DNA of 64,000 nt from assembly GCF_029760955.1 (NCBI RefSeq), contig NZ_CP121682.1, forward strand, positions 7,086,501-7,150,500. The letters run 5' to 3'. The translations under genes were made by a program, and so were the position numbers. Shown one piece after another: positions 13,520-20,893 of this stretch. The DNA comes from Streptomyces cathayae. GTDB lineage: Bacteria > Actinomycetota > Actinomycetes > Streptomycetales > Streptomycetaceae. A model generated the notes under the pieces. The model saw only the letters and a program-made list of their open reading frames with translations, made no database searches and was not told where the DNA came from. How positions within the stretch are numbered: position 1 is the first letter of the stretch; each line of letters begins with the position of its first letter.

Positions 13520-14383
13520 TCACGCCAGGGGATAGGGCGGCGGGGTGCCGCCGAACGCCGGGCAGAAGCTCTGATAGCCGCACCAGTCGCAGAGCCGACT
13601 CGGGCTGGGCTGCCACTCGCCCGTCGCCACCGCCTGCTGGATCGCCGCCCACAGCGCCTGCAGCTTCCGCTCCACCGCCCGCAGGTCCGCCTCGTCCGGG
13701 TCGTACGTCACCACGTCGCCGCTGCCCAGGTAGACCAACTGGAGGCGGCGCGGTACCACCCCGCGCCGCCTCCACAGGACCAGGGCGTAGAACTTCATCT
13801 GGAACATGGCCCGGTACTCGAAGTCCGGTGGGGGCGCCCGGCCGGTCTTGTAGTCCACCACGCGGATCTCACCGGTCGGGGCGACGTCCACCCGGTCGAT
13901 GATCCCGCGCAGTTCGAGACCCGACTCCAGCACCGTCTCCACGTGCAGTTCGCGCCCGGCGGGCTCCAACCGGTTCGGGTCCTCCATCCGGAAGTACCGG
14001 TCGAGCAGCTGTTCCGCCTCGGCCAGCCAGGCGGCCAGCGACGCGCCGTCCGCGTCCTCCGGGAAGAGGCCGGCCAGCTCGGGCCGTCTGCTCAGCAGCC
14101 GCTCCCACTCCGGACGCAGCAACGCGCGGGCGCGGCCCGGGGTGCGCTGCCCGGCCGGCACGTCGAAGAGCCGCTCCAGCACCGCGTGCACCACGGCGCC
14201 CCGGGCCGCCGCCTCGTTCGGTGGCTCCGGCAGCTTGTCGATCACCCGGAGCCGGTAGCGCAGCGGGCAGGTCATGAAGTCGTCCGCACGCGAGGGCGAC
14301 AGCGACGACGGCCTCCTCGGGGCGGACCGAGGTGTCGGGGGCGGGGCCGCGTCCGATGCGGCGGAACTCTCGGACGGAGGCAT
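13520..14383 (-). CDS. RecB-family PD-(D/E)XK exonuclease with Fe-S cluster
   Basis: 287 residues. [26 protein letters not shown] at the start supplies the first cluster Cys; [13 protein letters not shown] the conserved His; [23 protein letters not shown] the active-site Asp and Asp-x-Lys; [13 protein letters not shown] the last three Cys of an AddB/Cas4-like 4Fe-4S site. It is a DNA end-processing nuclease. A LexA-like box lies about 90 bases upstream, shared with the rightward ruvA paralog, so SOS control and a link to the recombination genes are plausible. Confidence 0.9.
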
Positions 14384-14473
14384 ACTCCGACCCTACGCCG
14401 GGCCCTTCCCGAGTCCACCGGACCGGTTCCGAGGCGATCGGTCCGGACGGTTCCTGGCGGCCACGACCTTTCC

Positions 14474-14489
14474 TCGTACACCTGTTCGA
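14474..14489. promoter_or_regulatory. LexA (SOS) box between RecB-like nuclease and ruvA
   Basis: TCGTACACCTGTTCGA matches the actinobacterial LexA palindrome TCGAAC-N4-GTTCGA at 11 of 12 fixed positions (A to T in the left arm). It sits 91 bases upstream of the nuclease start and 179 bases upstream of ruvA, so it could control both directions. Confidence 0.65.
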
Positions 14490-14573
14490 GTTACCATGAA
14501 ATCCTGGCCAGAGTGGACATATGGGGAAATGTGCACTTCATGGGCCGGGGCCCGCGGAAGATCTTCCCGTGTC

Positions 14574-14618
14574 CGCATCGGGCTCCGCAGACGGGGTCCG
14601 TCTGCGGAGCCCGATGCG
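14574..14618 (+). promoter_or_regulatory. 21-bp perfect hairpin in the ruvA leader
   Basis: Positions 14574-14594 and 14598-14618 are perfect complements with a GGT loop; no T tract follows. It lies between the SOS box and ruvA (50 bases before the start). In RNA this would be a very strong stem, able to terminate or pause transcription or hide the ribosome site. A second palindrome, GGAAGATCTTCC (14556-14567), lies just upstream. An attenuator or protein-binding role is inference. Confidence 0.7.
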
Positions 14619-14667
14619 CCCGGAGGGCCCGTCCCGCACCCGCACGACTTCAAAGGGGCACGATCCG

Positions 14668-15294
14668 ATGATCGCCTTCGTCAGCGGCACGGTCGCCGCG
14701 CTCGCCCCCGACGCCGCGGTCGTCGAGGTCGGCGGCGTCGGCATGGCCGTCCAATGCACGCCCAACACGCTGTCCGCGTTCCGCATCGGCAGGCAGGCCA
14801 GGCTGGCCGTCTCCCTGGTGGTGCGCGAGGACTCGCTCACCCTGTACGGCTTCGCGGACGACGACGAGCGGCAGGTCTTCGAGCTGCTGCAGACCGCCAG
14901 CAGCGTGGGCCCGCGCCTGGCCCAGGCCATGCTCGCCGTGCACACCCCGGACGCGCTGCGCCGGGCGGTCGCCCAAGGCGACGAGAAGACGCTCACCGCC
15001 GTGCCCGGCATCGGCAAGAGGGGTGCCCAGCGGCTGCTGCTGGAGCTCGCCGGCCGGCTCGGCGAGCCGGCCGGGGCCGCCGAGACCGGCCACCCGGCCG
15101 GCGCCGCCGCTCCCGCGCCCTGGAGCGAACAGCTGCGCGCGGCGCTCGTCGGCCTCGGGTACTCCGCGCACGAGGCCGAGGAGGCGATCGCGGCCGTCAC
15201 CCCCGCCGCCGAGGCCGCCGCGGCCGACGGTGCCGCCCCGAGGGTGTCGCAGCTGCTGCGTGCCGCCCTGCGCACCCTGAACCGCGCCCGCTGA
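14668..15294 (+). CDS. ruvA: RuvA paralog, Holliday-junction recognition subunit
   Basis: 208 residues, full length. Domain I (OB fold) [26 protein letters not shown]; domain II helix-hairpin-helix motifs [13 protein letters not shown] and [16 protein letters not shown]; domain III (RuvB-binding) [26 protein letters not shown]. It binds four-way junctions and loads RuvB. It is very like the core Streptomyces RuvA as I know it, but the usual yebC-ruvC-ruvA-ruvB-yajC-secD context is absent, so I take it as a second copy. AAAGGGG precedes the ATG; ruvB follows after 14 bases. Confidence 0.92.
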
Positions 15295-15308
15295 GAGGAG
15301 TGGACCGC

Positions 15309-16364
15309 ATGACCCGGGACGAAGCCGAAACCGCCGCCCTCATCGGACGGCTCGTCAGCCCCGCCGCGGAGCGGTTGGTGGGGTCTGTCGCCGACGGGGA
15401 GGACCAGGCCGTCGAGGCCGCCCTGCGGCCCAAGGACCTGGACGAGTTCATCGGCCAGGAGAAGGTCCGCGAGCAGCTCGACCTGGTGCTGCGCGCCGCC
15501 CGCGCGCGGGGTGCCACCGCCGACCACGTGCTGCTGTCCGGCGCCCCCGGTCTCGGCAAGACCACCCTCTCCATGATCATCGCGGCCGAGATGGAAGCCC
15601 CCATCCGCATCACCTCCGGCCCGGCCATCCAGCACGCCGGCGACCTCGCGGCGATCCTGTCCTCCCTCCAGGAGGGTGAGGTCCTCTTCCTCGACGAGAT
15701 CCACCGGATGTCCCGGCCCGCCGAGGAGATGCTGTACATGGCGATGGAGGACTTCCGCGTCGACGTCATCGTCGGCAAGGGGCTGGGTGCGACCGCCATC
15801 CCCCTCGAACTGCCCCCGTTCACCCTGGTCGGCGCCACCGTGCGGGCGGGTCTGCTGCCGCCCCCGCTGCGCGACCGCTTCGGCTTCACCGCGCACATGG
15901 AGTTCTACGAGCCCACCGAGCTGGAGCGGGTGATCCACCGCTCGGCCCGGCTGCTGGAGGTGGAGACGACGCCCGAGGGGGTTGCCGAGATCGCCGGCCG
16001 TTCGCGCGGCACCCCCCGCATCGCCAACCGCCTCCTGCGCCGGGTCCGGGACTACGCCCAGGTCAGGGCCGACGGCGTGGTCACCCGCGAGATCGCCACG
16101 GCGGCCCTGGCGGTCTACGAGGTCGACGGCCGCGGCCTGGACCGGCTCGACCGGGCGGTGCTGGAGGCCCTGATCAAGCTGTTCGGCGGGGGACCGGTCG
16201 GCCTGTCCACGCTCGCGGTCGCGGTGGGGGAGGAACGGGAGACCGTCGCGGAGGTGGCCGAGCCGTTCCTGGTCCGGGAGGGCCTGCTGGCCCGCACCCT
16301 GCGCGGCCGGATCGCCACGCCCGCCGCGTGGGAGCACTTCGGTCTCGTGCCACCGGGGCGCTGA
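15309..16364 (+). CDS. ruvB: RuvB paralog, branch-migration ATPase
   Basis: 351 residues. [20 protein letters not shown] start of the AAA+ core, Walker [10 protein letters not shown], Walker [10 protein letters not shown], arginine-finger region LRDRFGF, then the small and winged-helix domains ending [22 protein letters not shown]. The sensor-1 region reads GATVRAG where RuvB proteins normally have GATTRAG. The N-terminal extension ([13 protein letters not shown]) differs from the usual start. GAGAGGAG lies 8 bases before ATG; a GTG 9 bases earlier is an alternative. Operon with ruvA. Confidence 0.92.
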
Positions 16365-16433
16365 CGCGGGCGCGCTCATTCCGGCACTTGAAGACGATAG
16401 ATGACCTTCTGTCCACTTTTTCTGAGGAAAGTG

Positions 16434-16463
16434 TTGATTTCACCCCCTGTTCGCGCCTAGCGT
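16434..16463 (+). promoter_or_regulatory. Candidate promoter for the ATPase-ssb-recA operon
   Basis: TTGATT (16434-16439) and TAGCGT (16458-16463) with an 18-base spacer resemble a housekeeping Streptomyces promoter. The predicted start, about 16470, lies just before the LexA box at 16480, so LexA bound there would block initiation or escape. Confidence 0.5.
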
Positions 16464-16479
16464 GGGATTCCCATCGGTT

Positions 16480-16495
16480 TCGAACAGGTATTCGA
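16480..16495. promoter_or_regulatory. LexA (SOS) box before the Sak4-like ATPase operon
   Basis: TCGAACAGGTATTCGA matches TCGAAC-N4-GTTCGA at 11 of 12 fixed positions (G to A). It lies about 107 bases upstream of the GTG start and directly downstream of a plausible -10. A near-consensus SOS box also precedes the ruvA paralog 2 kb upstream. Confidence 0.7.
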
Positions 16496-16602
16496 ACTGA
16501 GGCGTCGGCCGTGTGGGTGCACGTCTTGCCGGGTGAGGACCGTGTTCCGTCCCTCCCCAAGCCCACCCCGAACCGCCGTCGGATGCGCCAGAGGAGAACG
16601 GC

Positions 16603-17564
<962 letters not shown>

Positions 17565-17568
<4 letters not shown>

Positions 17569-18077
17569 ACCTCCGGGACCGCGCCACCCGGGTCGTCGTG
17601 CTCAGGGTGCTGCGCGACGCGGTGGAGGCCGAGTACCGGGCCGAGCGCCGCGCGGTCCTCGACGGGCTGCGCGCGGCTCGCGCCGAGCTCGCCCTCAAGT
17701 CGATGCGGGTGACCCTGCCGGACGACATCCCGATCGCCACCCTCACGCTCATCGACCCCCAGCCGACGGTCGTGGTCGCCGACGAGGACGCCTTCACCGC
17801 CTGGGTGGCCGTGAACCACCCCGGCGAGGTGGAGACCCTGGTCCGGGTGCGCCCCGCCTGGAGGCGGGAGTTCTTCGGCCGGCTCGCCTGCTTCGACCCG
17901 GTCGCCGACCCGCACACCGGCGAGGTGATCCCGGGACTGGCGGTGGAGCCGGCCTCCGAACCGCGTTCGTTCAGCCTGCGGCCCGTGCCCGGCGGAGTGG
18001 AACGGGTCGCCCGTGCCTGGCACACCGGCGAGATCGACCTGCGCTGGCTGCTCGCCCTCGGCGGTGGCGAGACGTGA
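17565..18077 (+). CDS. Uncharacterised protein of the recombination operon
   Basis: 170 residues, not recognised. The N-terminal half is a charged helix (VLRVLRDAVEAEYRAERRAVLDGLRAARAEL); the rest is mixed alpha/beta with a conserved-looking core ITLIDPQP-like segment (TLTLIDPQPTVVVADEDAFTAWV) and ends LRWLLALGGGET. No signal peptide, membrane segment or metal motif. GTG start overlaps the upstream ATPase stop by 4 bases, and the stop overlaps the next ATG (TGATG), so translation is coupled on both sides. Proteins of this shape follow Sak4-like ATPases in actinophages (weak recollection). Confidence 0.7.
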
Positions 18078-18988
18078 TGACCACCGCCACGGCGCGCTCC
18101 GACAGGGACCTGCCCGCCACTCTGTGGTTCCTGATCTCACAAGCCGGTCACCTCGGCTGCGGCCGCTGGAGTCTCGAGAGCGACGGGCGGCTGCGCTGCG
18201 CCTGCGGGACCGTCCTGTACCTGTACCGGCAGGCGGCGGACGGGGCGGGAGACGGGGCACCGGCACCCACCGGGACGCGACCCCGCGGAAGGGAGGAACA
18301 GATGACGCCGACCGAGACCGCGGAACTCGCCGCCCTGGTCGCGGCGATGTGCCCGTCGATGCATCTGGAGGAGACCGCGACGGACGCCTGGCACCTCCTG
18401 CTCGCCGACCTGGACATCGCCGACACGCGGGAAGCCGTGATCCGGCTGGGCCGCAGACAGTCCCCCATCGACGCCGCCGACATCCGTGCCGAGGTGCACG
18501 CGATCCGGGAGGAGCGGCTCGCCCGCGACCCACTGCCGCTCCCGGACGCCGACCCGGACGACCCGCACCGCTACCGCGCGGAACTCCTCGCGATCGTGAC
18601 CGCGATCGCCTCGGGACAGCGTGTCAAGCGGGCACCCGCCGTCCCGGCCCAGTCGTCGCCCGCCCCCGTCGGACGCTCGAGGCGCGACCTCCGTGCCCAC
18701 GCCCTTCGCGTGCCCTGCCCCTGGTGCCGGGCCGCCGCCGGCCGCCCCTGTACCGTCCCCCGGCTCGGCATCCCGATGAAGAACGCTCCGGCCCATGCGT
18801 CGAGGCTCATCGCGGCGGGGCCTGACGAACGAGAAGAGCGAGAAGAGCGAGGAGAACCAGAGGAACCAGAGGAACCAGAGGGACAAGGAGAGCGAGGCGA
18901 GAAGGGGCCGGGCAGTGCGCCCGGGGAGCCCCCGGAACGGCAGCGTTGTCGTCGGACAGTCAACTCCCCCCGTCCGTTCGTGCGTTAG
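18077..18988 (+). CDS. Zinc-binding protein with possible internal second start
   Basis: 303 residues if read from ATG 18077. N-terminal part has [17 protein letters not shown], a likely Zn ribbon. A helical domain follows from about residue 76 ([20 protein letters not shown]...[18 protein letters not shown]), then [31 protein letters not shown], a phage-type CxxC...C...H zinc site. The tail is low-complexity [19 protein letters not shown] strong GGGAGGA stands before an in-frame ATG at 18302, so a shorter 228-residue product is likely made too, or the gene is a fusion of two. The helical part recalls replisome-loader helper proteins; function unknown. Confidence 0.68.
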
Positions 18989-18999
18989 GAGTACCTCTC

Positions 19000-19488
19000 A
19001 TGGTCGGCGAGACCGTCGTCACCGTCGTCGGCAACCTGACCGACGACCCCGAAATCCGCACCACCCCGTCCGGCGACGCGGTCACACACTTCACCGTCGC
19101 CTCCACGCCCCGCACCTTCGACCGGCAGAGCAACGAGTGGAGGGACGCCGACACGCTGTTCCTGCGCTGCTCGGCCTGGCGGCAGACGGCGGAACACGTC
19201 GCGCAGTCCCTGGCACGCGGCACCCGCGTCATCGTCCAGGGGCGGCTGCACCAGCGGACGTACGAGACCAGGGAAGGCGAGAAGCGGACCGTCATCGAAC
19301 TGGAGGCCCTGGAGATCGGCCCCTCCCTGCGCTACGCCGCCGCGACGGTCAGCAGGACTCCGCGCGTGGGCGTGCCCGACGGCACCCTCTTCGACACCGT
19401 CCCGCCCGCACCGAACGACGCGCCGGGCGCTCCCGACGGGGACGAAAGCGCCTCCCGCGAGCACCACAGCCCCACGTTCCCTTTCTGA
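19000..19488 (+). CDS. ssb: Single-stranded DNA-binding protein (SSB) paralog
   Basis: 162 residues. The OB fold is complete: [59 protein letters not shown]. The C-terminal tail is short and ends SPTFPF; the usual acidic DDxPF tip that recruits repair proteins is degraded, keeping only the final PF. AGGAG lies 8 bases before the ATG. Starts 11 bases after the zinc protein. It probably coats ssDNA for the adjacent RecA and Sak4-like proteins. Confidence 0.93.
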
Positions 19489-19517
19489 CCCGGGTGAAGC
19501 CCCGCCGGGTGATCGTC

Positions 19518-19766
19518 ATGAAGGACCTTCCGCCAAACGGCCAGGCACGGCTCGAGAACTGGACCCCGGCCGCCGCCATCGGCCTGACCTGCACCGACTG
19601 CCATCCCGAATACCGGGAGACCGCCCCGAGGTGGGGGCGGGTCGTCGGTGCCGGCCAGGGGCTCGAAGAACTCGAAGAAGGGGACCGAGAGCTGCCGCGA
19701 TCGAAGAGCACGTATCCGACATGTGCGCAGGGAAGGCGCACAGAACCCCCAGGGTGGCGACCATGA
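19518..19766 (+). CDS. Possible small protein coupled to recA
   Basis: 82 codons, [20 protein letters not shown]...[10 protein letters not shown], not recognised; a single CxxCH is the only notable motif. Its stop overlaps the recA ATG (ATGA), as other genes in this operon do, which supports it. The ribosome site is weak and the second half has relaxed third-base GC, which argues against. It may be a leader peptide or only an untranslated spacer. Confidence 0.35.
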
Positions 19767-20893
19767 AGGAACAGGACCGCGAGCAGGCGCTCGAACTCGC
19801 CCTCGCCCAGATCGAGAAGCGGTTCGGCCAGGGCTCGGTCATGCGCCTCGGCGACGACCCCTGGACCCCCATCGAGGTCATCCCGACCGGCTCCCTCGCC
19901 CTCGACGTGGCCCTCGGCATGGGAGGCCTGCCGCGTGGGCGGGTCGTGGAGATCTACGGCCCGGAGATGAGCGGGAAAACCACCATCGCGCTGCACGCCA
20001 TAGCCAACGTGCAGCGGGCCGGCGGGACCGCGGTGTTCATCGACGCCGAGTACGGCCTCGACGTCGAATACGCGAAGAGGCTCGGCGTCGACATCGACGA
20101 CCTGATCCTGTCCCAGCCGGACACCGGCGAGCAGGCGCTGGAGATCGCCGACACGCTGATCCGCTCCGGTGCCGTCGACCTCATCGTGATCGACTCCGTG
20201 GCGGCGCTGGTGCCGCGCGCGGAGATCGAGGGCGAGATGGGCGACTCGCACGTGGGCCTGCAGGCCCGGCTGATGAGCCAGGCGCTGCGGAAGATCGCCG
20301 GCGCGCTCAGCCAGTCGAGGACCACGATGATCTTCATCAACCAGCTGCGCGAGAAGATCGGTGTGATGTTCGGCTCCCCGGAGACCACCACCGGTGGCCG
20401 GGCGCTGAAGTTCTACGCCTCGGTGCGCATCGACATCCGCCGGATCGAGACCCTCAAGAGCGGCACCGAGGCGGTCGGCAACCGCACCCGCTGCAAGATC
20501 GCCAAGAACAAGATCGCACCGCCCTTCAAGCAGGCCGAGTTCGACATCCTCTACGGCCGGGGCATCAGCCGCGAGGGCGGGCTGATCGACATGGGTATCG
20601 AACACGGCTTCGTCCGCAAGGCCGGTGCCTGGTACACCTACGAGGGCGACCAGCTCGGCCAGGGCAAGGAGAACGCCCGCGCCTTCCTCAAGGACAACCC
20701 CGACCTCGCCGACGAGATCGAGAAGAAGATCCTGGAGAAGCTCGGCATCGGGGTGCGGCCGGAGACTCCTCCGGCGGAGTCGGCGGAGTCGGCGGAGTCG
20801 GCGGAGTCAGCGGAGCCCGGCGCCGACGCCGTCCCCGCGGTCTCCATCGGCCTCACGAGGGCGCCGGCCGACCACGCGGGGCTCCACCTGTAG
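19763..20893 (+). CDS. recA: RecA recombinase paralog
   Basis: 376 residues, full Rec[21 protein letters not shown] start; Walker [10 protein letters not shown] (the usual GPESSGKTT has Ser for Met); FIDAEYGLD with the catalytic Glu (canonical DAEHALD); [24 protein letters not shown] with loop L1; [21 protein letters not shown] with loop L2; [12 protein letters not shown]. The C-terminal tail is [11 protein letters not shown] from a 9-base repeat, not the usual acidic tail. All strand-exchange residues I can identify are kept. As it lies in a phage-like operon, I take it as a second RecA; the core copy should be elsewhere. AGGGTGG precedes the ATG. Confidence 0.92.
20774..20809 (+). repeat. 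9-base tandem repeat in recA paralog tail
   Basis: Four copies of GCGGAGTCG (the last with one change) encode AES units at the RecA C-terminus. Similar 9-base repeats occur in the tail of the ATPase gene of the same operon. Confidence 0.85.

Follow-up and report, generated by a model that had tools for sequence, protein, structure and literature searches.

What is a second set of homologous-recombination genes doing in a streptomycete chromosome that already has one? The question is raised by a block at positions 13520 to 20893 of a 64,000-nucleotide stretch of Streptomyces cathayae DNA (the window; positions 7,086,501 to 7,150,500 of the 7,464,554-base contig NZ_CP121682.1), which lies on a chromosome-sized contig, roughly 0.36 Mb short of the contig's right end. 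Our best reading, based on gene families, predicted operators, and comparison between genomes, is that the block is a chromosomal hybrid, part phage annealing module and part paralogs of host recombination genes, and that it would be controlled by the SOS response and act on double-strand breaks. We put the probability that the block holds an accessory set of genes for homologous recombination, under SOS control and used on DNA double-strand breaks, at roughly 0.5. Family models upheld the named genes of the initial annotation (nuclease, RuvA, RuvB, ATPase, SSB, and RecA), and the overlapping starts that it reported in the second rightward unit also stand, with revised limits for RuvA and new starts for RuvB and SSB; the zinc protein that it listed is present, now as a single frame. 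With these revisions, the features are as follows (loci of other genomes are numbered with L):

13520 to 14383, minus strand: RecB/AddB/Cas4-like PD-(D/E)XK nuclease (PF12705, 3.7e-44)
14474 to 14489: LexA-like box 1, TCGTACACCTGTTCGA, upstream of the ruv unit
14490 to 14667, plus strand: leader and scar, the site of ruvC in kin, with about 0.6 kb deleted (blastn against L044 and L076)
14668 to 15294, plus strand: RuvA paralog (TIGR00084, 179 bits, cut-off 85)
15309 to 16364, plus strand: RuvB paralog (NF000868, 484 bits, cut-off 282)
16434 to 16463, plus strand: promoter-like TTGATT-N18-TAGCGT (from an alignment of 29 upstream regions)
16480 to 16495: LexA-like box 2, TCGAACAGGTATTCGA, upstream of the ATPase unit
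16603 to 17568, plus strand: RecA-core-only P-loop ATPase of phage type (PF13479 [AAA_24], phrog_1366, weak phrog_124)
17565 to 18077, plus strand: ORFx, a predicted phage-recombination-module protein, perhaps a binder of DNA ends (its start and the ATPase stop share GTGA)
18077 to 18988, plus strand: zinc-type, phage-like protein of 303 amino acids (TGATG overlap with ORFx)
19000 to 19488, plus strand: SSB paralog whose C-terminal tip is Pro-Phe (NF005851, 223 bits, cut-off 194)
19518 to 19766, plus strand: small Cys-motif frame of 82 amino acids (ATGA overlap with the recA start)
19763 to 20893, plus strand: second RecA (TIGR02012, 559 bits, cut-off 325)

The first rightward unit, downstream of box 1, is RuvA-RuvB, and the second, downstream of box 2, runs from the ATPase through ORFx and the zinc protein to SSB, the Cys-motif frame, and RecA. 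The second RecA has both the core and the C-terminal domains (PF00154 and PF21096), the nuclease scores below the cut-offs of the cas4 and AddB models, and the zinc-type protein matches phrog_8924, phrog_22143, and others, all families of unknown function.

A search of the same genome found core recA, ruvCAB, and ssb genes elsewhere, so those in the block are not the only ones, in agreement with the initial annotation. The core recA, at 2.16 Mb, is 79% identical to the block RecA, and the core ruvB, at 6.52 Mb and preceded by ruvC and ruvA, is 94% identical to the block RuvB (95% between the two genes in DNA). Other ssb copies lie at 4.02 Mb (68% identical) and 5.21 Mb (41%), and a nuclease paralog lies at 6.38 Mb (67%). 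Judged by eye from protein starts, the neighbors of these copies are presumably a recX-like frame behind core recA, yajC- and secDF-like frames behind ruvC-ruvA-ruvB, an rpsF-like frame adjoining the 68% ssb copy, and trmI- and proteasome-ATPase-like frames near the nuclease paralog. The block thus provides a genuine second set of such genes. Its RecA, RuvAB, and SSB are paralogs of the products of the core actinobacterial recA-recX, ruvCAB, and ssb loci; unlike those loci, it gathers the paralogs with phage-type genes, has no recX, and in the window has lost ruvC.

The two LexA boxes noted before the rightward units each carry one mismatch to TCGAACN4GTTCGA. They lie 2 kb apart and are among 24 sites with at most one mismatch in the 7.6-Mb genome, none of them perfect, while a reversed-pattern control gave 10. 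We also scanned up to 600 bp upstream of the ATPase gene, allowing at most two mismatches, in 30 cases that included the window. Of the 29 informative cases, 28 have a LexA-like palindrome, which lies at -121 to -126 in 25; the upstream DNA of L061 was too short, and in L062 the only version has a spacer of 3 bases. The background was 0.17 to 0.19 per kb, or about 0.1 per 600 bp, and the palindrome-bearing loci are related, so that they are not independent events. In the available part of a study of Streptomyces venezuelae, the LexA sites include those of recA, TCGAACATCCATTC, and dnaE2-1, TCGTACGTACGTTC, and the consensus from chromatin immunoprecipitation is tCGAAC-N4-GNNCGa (PMC9380542). 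The window boxes fit the forms of these sites, as given there, and that of the core recA box of their own genome (TCGAACATCTATTCTT; the lexA box is TCGAACGTGTGTTTGG). Letters similar to the TTGATT-N18-TAGCGT promoter recur in most aligned upstream rows, and in the window this promoter stands before the box. Judged by the conserved palindrome and the fit to the S. venezuelae sites, the case for LexA is better than the sequence of the window alone could show, and the block is likely SOS controlled through the predicted LexA operators. The promoters of core recA and ruvC (L010 and L009) carry TGTCAGTGGC followed by TAGC, the PafBC-type damage promoter, which is not seen in the cassette promoter. 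A second protein of this genome weakly matches the LexA-type DNA-binding domain (L143; contig 1, about 853.5 kb; 25.4 bits, cut-off 23.7).

The ATPase has the RecA/Rad51/KaiC fold, with a RecA core and without the RecA C-terminal domain. We class it as Sak4-like and not as Sak4 because its best match is phrog_1366 (2.4e-90), with a weaker match to the Sak4 family, phrog_124 (4.6e-7). The available text on phage Sak4 describes an ATP-dependent annealase that is stimulated by its cognate SSB and reports that up to 80% of sak4 genes adjoin an ssb gene (PMC5928155). Among the 29 loci that carry versions of the block (cassettes, described below), an ssb gene lies within 2.6 kb of the ATPase gene in 27. 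The same kind of RecA-core ATPase beside a cognate ssb, in the company of a phage recombination module, is thus a feature shared with the Sak4-SSB modules of HK620 and other phages as presented in that text; unlike them, the block is chromosomal, stands behind LexA-like boxes, includes host-type RecA, Ruv proteins, and nuclease, and has phrog_1366 as the best family of its ATPase. We found relatives in phages for both the ATPase (409 records) and ORFx (43 records), whereas recA, ssb, ruv, and the nuclease gene are paralogs of host genes, which bears out the earlier description of phage-type parts mixed with paralogs of core genes.

A scan of genome contigs with the ATPase gave 45 loci, 29 of which (L042 to L069 and L076) hold cassette versions; the other 16 (L070 to L075 and L077 to L086) yielded no relative of RecA in the available DNA. 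Within 9 kb of the ATPase and at an E-value of 1e-15, the companions in the 29 loci were SSB (27), ORFx (27), RecA (22), the zinc protein (19), RuvB (16), and the nuclease (15), with RuvC, SbcD, SbcC, and Ku in 4 each and RuvA and RadA in 3 each; this count excludes a more distant SbcC-like frame in L068. Pfam models support representatives of RuvC, Ku, SbcC/SMC-like, SbcD-like, and RadA-like proteins. Since L047, L067, and L076 end too soon, RecA is present in 22 of 26 informative loci. The block is therefore co-conserved across genomes, in these 29 loci and in longer variants. SbcCD, Ku, or RadA accompany these genes in other lineages, from which we infer that the gene set is modular around ATPase-ORFx-SSB; these three are kept more often than RecA and are therefore taken as its heart, with RecA, Ruv, Ku, and SbcCD as probable added modules.

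Cassette carriers are mostly Streptomyces but include Streptacidiphilus and Streptosporangium, with partial versions in Thermomonospora and Pseudonocardia. In Streptosporangium subroseum, the order is nuclease-ATPase-ORFx-SSB-RecA-x-SbcD-SbcC, with Ku close by, and in Thermomonospora, one contig has ATPase-SSB-SbcD-SbcC and another has the end of SbcC followed by RecA and RuvB. The Thermomonospora RecA copy (L163, 929 to 2097), beside RuvB and the SbcC end, is split into two frames. Variants of the Ku/SbcCD type also have a protein of about 320 to 350 amino acids after RecA (L066, 14536 to 15504, with homologs in L061, L063, L064, and L065), for which the one representative scanned had no Pfam match. 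Of 295 Streptomyces genomes, 34 have the ATPase (at least 76% identical in 8, the window's genome included), as do 7 of 394 genomes drawn from the class (at least 82% identical in 2, one of them the window's own). The cassette is rare and patchy. Patchiness and the Cas4-like match of the nuclease would suit an anti-phage or anti-plasmid defense set, an explanation that we consider extremely improbable, given that PADLOC returns only generic nuclease and P-loop matches and that the partners are repair proteins.

In a tree of the ATPases, 28 cassette-labeled rows form one clade (support, 98/86) that is separate from the prophage ATPases; L067 and then L068 join it next (100/97), apart from other ATPases. 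For RecA, 23 of 27 cassette proteins form one clade (100/99), which includes two from Streptosporangium whose own core RecAs are placed elsewhere, and these placements show transfer of the cassette RecA into Streptosporangium. The remaining four (L045, L046, L049, and L050) fall beside Streptomyces core RecA, and an approximately unbiased test did not reject a single clade for all 27 (p 0.18). A second recA in another Streptomyces genome, G005 (L162, 10306 to 11391), lies outside any such cassette and groups with its own core recA.

The block might also belong to an integrative element or prophage, or be what is left of one, with host genes acquired by the element's recombination module, which would then work for the element rather than for the host; transfer and patchiness fit this view. 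The phage relatives of the ATPase and ORFx agree with this, as do relatives of both in the prophage-like loci L070 to L079, several of which show runs of short genes that suggest prophage by eye. Against it, no integrase or phage structural gene was recognized by eye among the called neighbors, the window has no tRNA, ORFx gave only 3 weak matches when compared with plasmids, and the cassettes are accompanied by host-type RecA, Ruv, Ku, and SbcCD genes; we regard an element-serving role as distinctly unlikely.

The cassette RuvBs are spread over more than one part of their tree, and a single clade was not rejected by a protein test (p 0.12) and was rejected by a DNA test (p 0.0012). The ruv genes stand before the ATPase in some cassettes, and in others ruvB follows recA; these differing positions point to separate recruitment of the cassette ruvB, and conversion with core ruvB is possible. 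In genome G561 (L182 and L183), which was left out of the RecA tree, the recA gene of the cassette shares 97.8% identity with the core gene over 1029 bases, apparently a sign of recent conversion or replacement, while its ATPase is 82% identical to that of the window. These patterns hint at exchange of the cassette with core recA and ruvB. They also bring in another explanation, that the block is a simple back-up that supplies more RecA, SSB, and RuvAB under damage control, with no separate pathway and the phage-type genes as passengers. The nearly core recA of G561, the closeness of the window ruvB to its core copy, and the family-level scores retained by RecA and RuvB all suit it. We nevertheless think it fairly unlikely, since the ATPase (29 loci) and ORFx (27) are retained at least as frequently as RecA (22) and show few amino acid changes between near kin, with ratios of nonsynonymous to synonymous substitution (window versus L044) of 0.14 and 0.45, respectively.

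The preferred reading, a hybrid set acting on double-strand breaks, takes the presence, order, boxes, and history of the block as observed, and we infer each biochemical step from protein families and the available part of the Sak4 work (PMC5928155). Upon DNA damage, removal of LexA would release the cassette. ORFx might then bind DNA ends and shield them from housekeeping end-processing enzymes, single strands would be made by the RecB/Cas4-like nuclease or SbcCD and coated by the paralogous SSB, and the ATPase with SSB could serve as annealase or RecA loader, much as phage Sak4 or Rad51 paralogs do. Strand exchange would fall to the second RecA, and RuvAB would move and resolve the junctions, with core RuvC where the local ruvC is lost. 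A role at breaks is supported by the variant partners RuvC, Ku, SbcCD, and RadA, all of which act on breaks or junctions, and the strong family score kept by the second RecA also favors this reading, whose functional part, including induction and activity, is a prediction.

Several observations weigh against it. The best ATPase family, phrog_1366, has unknown function, and the match to Sak4 is the weaker one. As for end binding by ORFx, a weak phrog_2205 match appears in 3 of 53 rows (best, 3e-4), the window's row not among them; comparison with a narrow Mu Gam alignment (hhalign) gave a probability of 0.3%; and no Gam or Ku model is among its Pfam matches. RecA is absent from 4 of the 26 informative loci (L042, L043, L062, and L068) though the DNA continues, so the set can do without it, and the near identity of the two recA genes in G561 means that a specialized RecA is not always needed. 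Many boxes of the L051 to L060 group carry two mismatches (TCGAAT-N4-ATTCGA), and only 8 of 295 Streptomyces genomes have the cassette at 76% identity or more.

Alternatively, the task of the set could be not repair but recombination with diverged or incoming DNA, as in gene capture or the exchange of arms. Phage annealing proteins reportedly accept diverged sequences, the block lies near a contig end, and recA and ruvB copies bear traces of exchange; LexA-like control and the Ku and SbcCD partners point to breaks first, and we find this alternative very doubtful. Returning to break repair, a broader proposal, which we advance tentatively and at somewhat less than even odds, is that these cassettes represent a previously undescribed, LexA-controlled, and horizontally spread second double-strand-break repair pathway of Actinomycetota. 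It would be built around an ATPase of phage origin that resembles Rad51 paralogs, an end-binding protein of phage type, and a private SSB; would repeatedly recruit host paralogs (RecA, RuvB or RuvCAB, RecB-like nuclease, SbcCD, Ku, and RadA); and would run parallel to the housekeeping RecA pathway.

The initial annotation described ruvA-ruvB without ruvC. This holds for the window, where RuvA and RuvB of the RuvABC resolvasome are present and RuvC is not, but it is not the design of the cassette. Relative to L044 and L076, the window lacks the roughly 0.6 kb that holds ruvC and retains box 1 (blastn), a local loss. Close kin (L042, L043, L044, and L076) keep a RuvC frame within the ruv unit (Pfam was run on that of L044), RuvA was found in three of these four and not in L043, and box 1 stands at the same place before ruvC in L043, L044, and L076.

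Among known systems, the ImuA'-ImuB-DnaE2 mutasome is a damage-inducible cassette with a RecA-like member that serves translesion synthesis. We noticed no polymerase among the genes of the present cassette. Myxococcus xanthus likewise has two recA genes (RecA1 and RecA2), both induced by ultraviolet light, in a different phylum and with no comparable operon mentioned in the available text (PMC7029660). Streptomyces genes for non-homologous end joining are variable, with accessory Ku genes and a patchy distribution, and the accessible part of that report describes no RecA, SSB, or ATPase neighbors (PMC5124664); in the cassette, Ku is merely optional. The cassette is mentioned neither there nor in the available part of a recombination survey (PMC1193525). 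Literature searches on a second Streptomyces recA, recA paralogs, domesticated phage recombinases, and repair-gene islands gave no description of it among the matches listed (subscription papers and preprints lay outside the search), in line with the earlier statement that no Streptomyces system of this make-up was known. Each part is of a known kind, and what we have not found described is the conserved, LexA-boxed combination, in which a phage annealing module is coupled to private copies of RecA, SSB, Ruv, and end-processing genes in a chromosomal set. If the mechanism is true, bacteria would offer a natural example of one operon that holds both a recombinase and a Rad51-paralog-like helper, and the cassette would be a candidate reason why Streptomyces strains differ in damage resistance and chromosome-arm change.

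The small frame between ssb and recA has a CxxCHP motif and is present in 8 of 31 loci examined. Short tandem repeats occur at the 3' ends of the ATPase gene (17505 to 17553, TER peptide) and recA (20775 to 20815, AES peptide), and the ATPase tails vary between kin.

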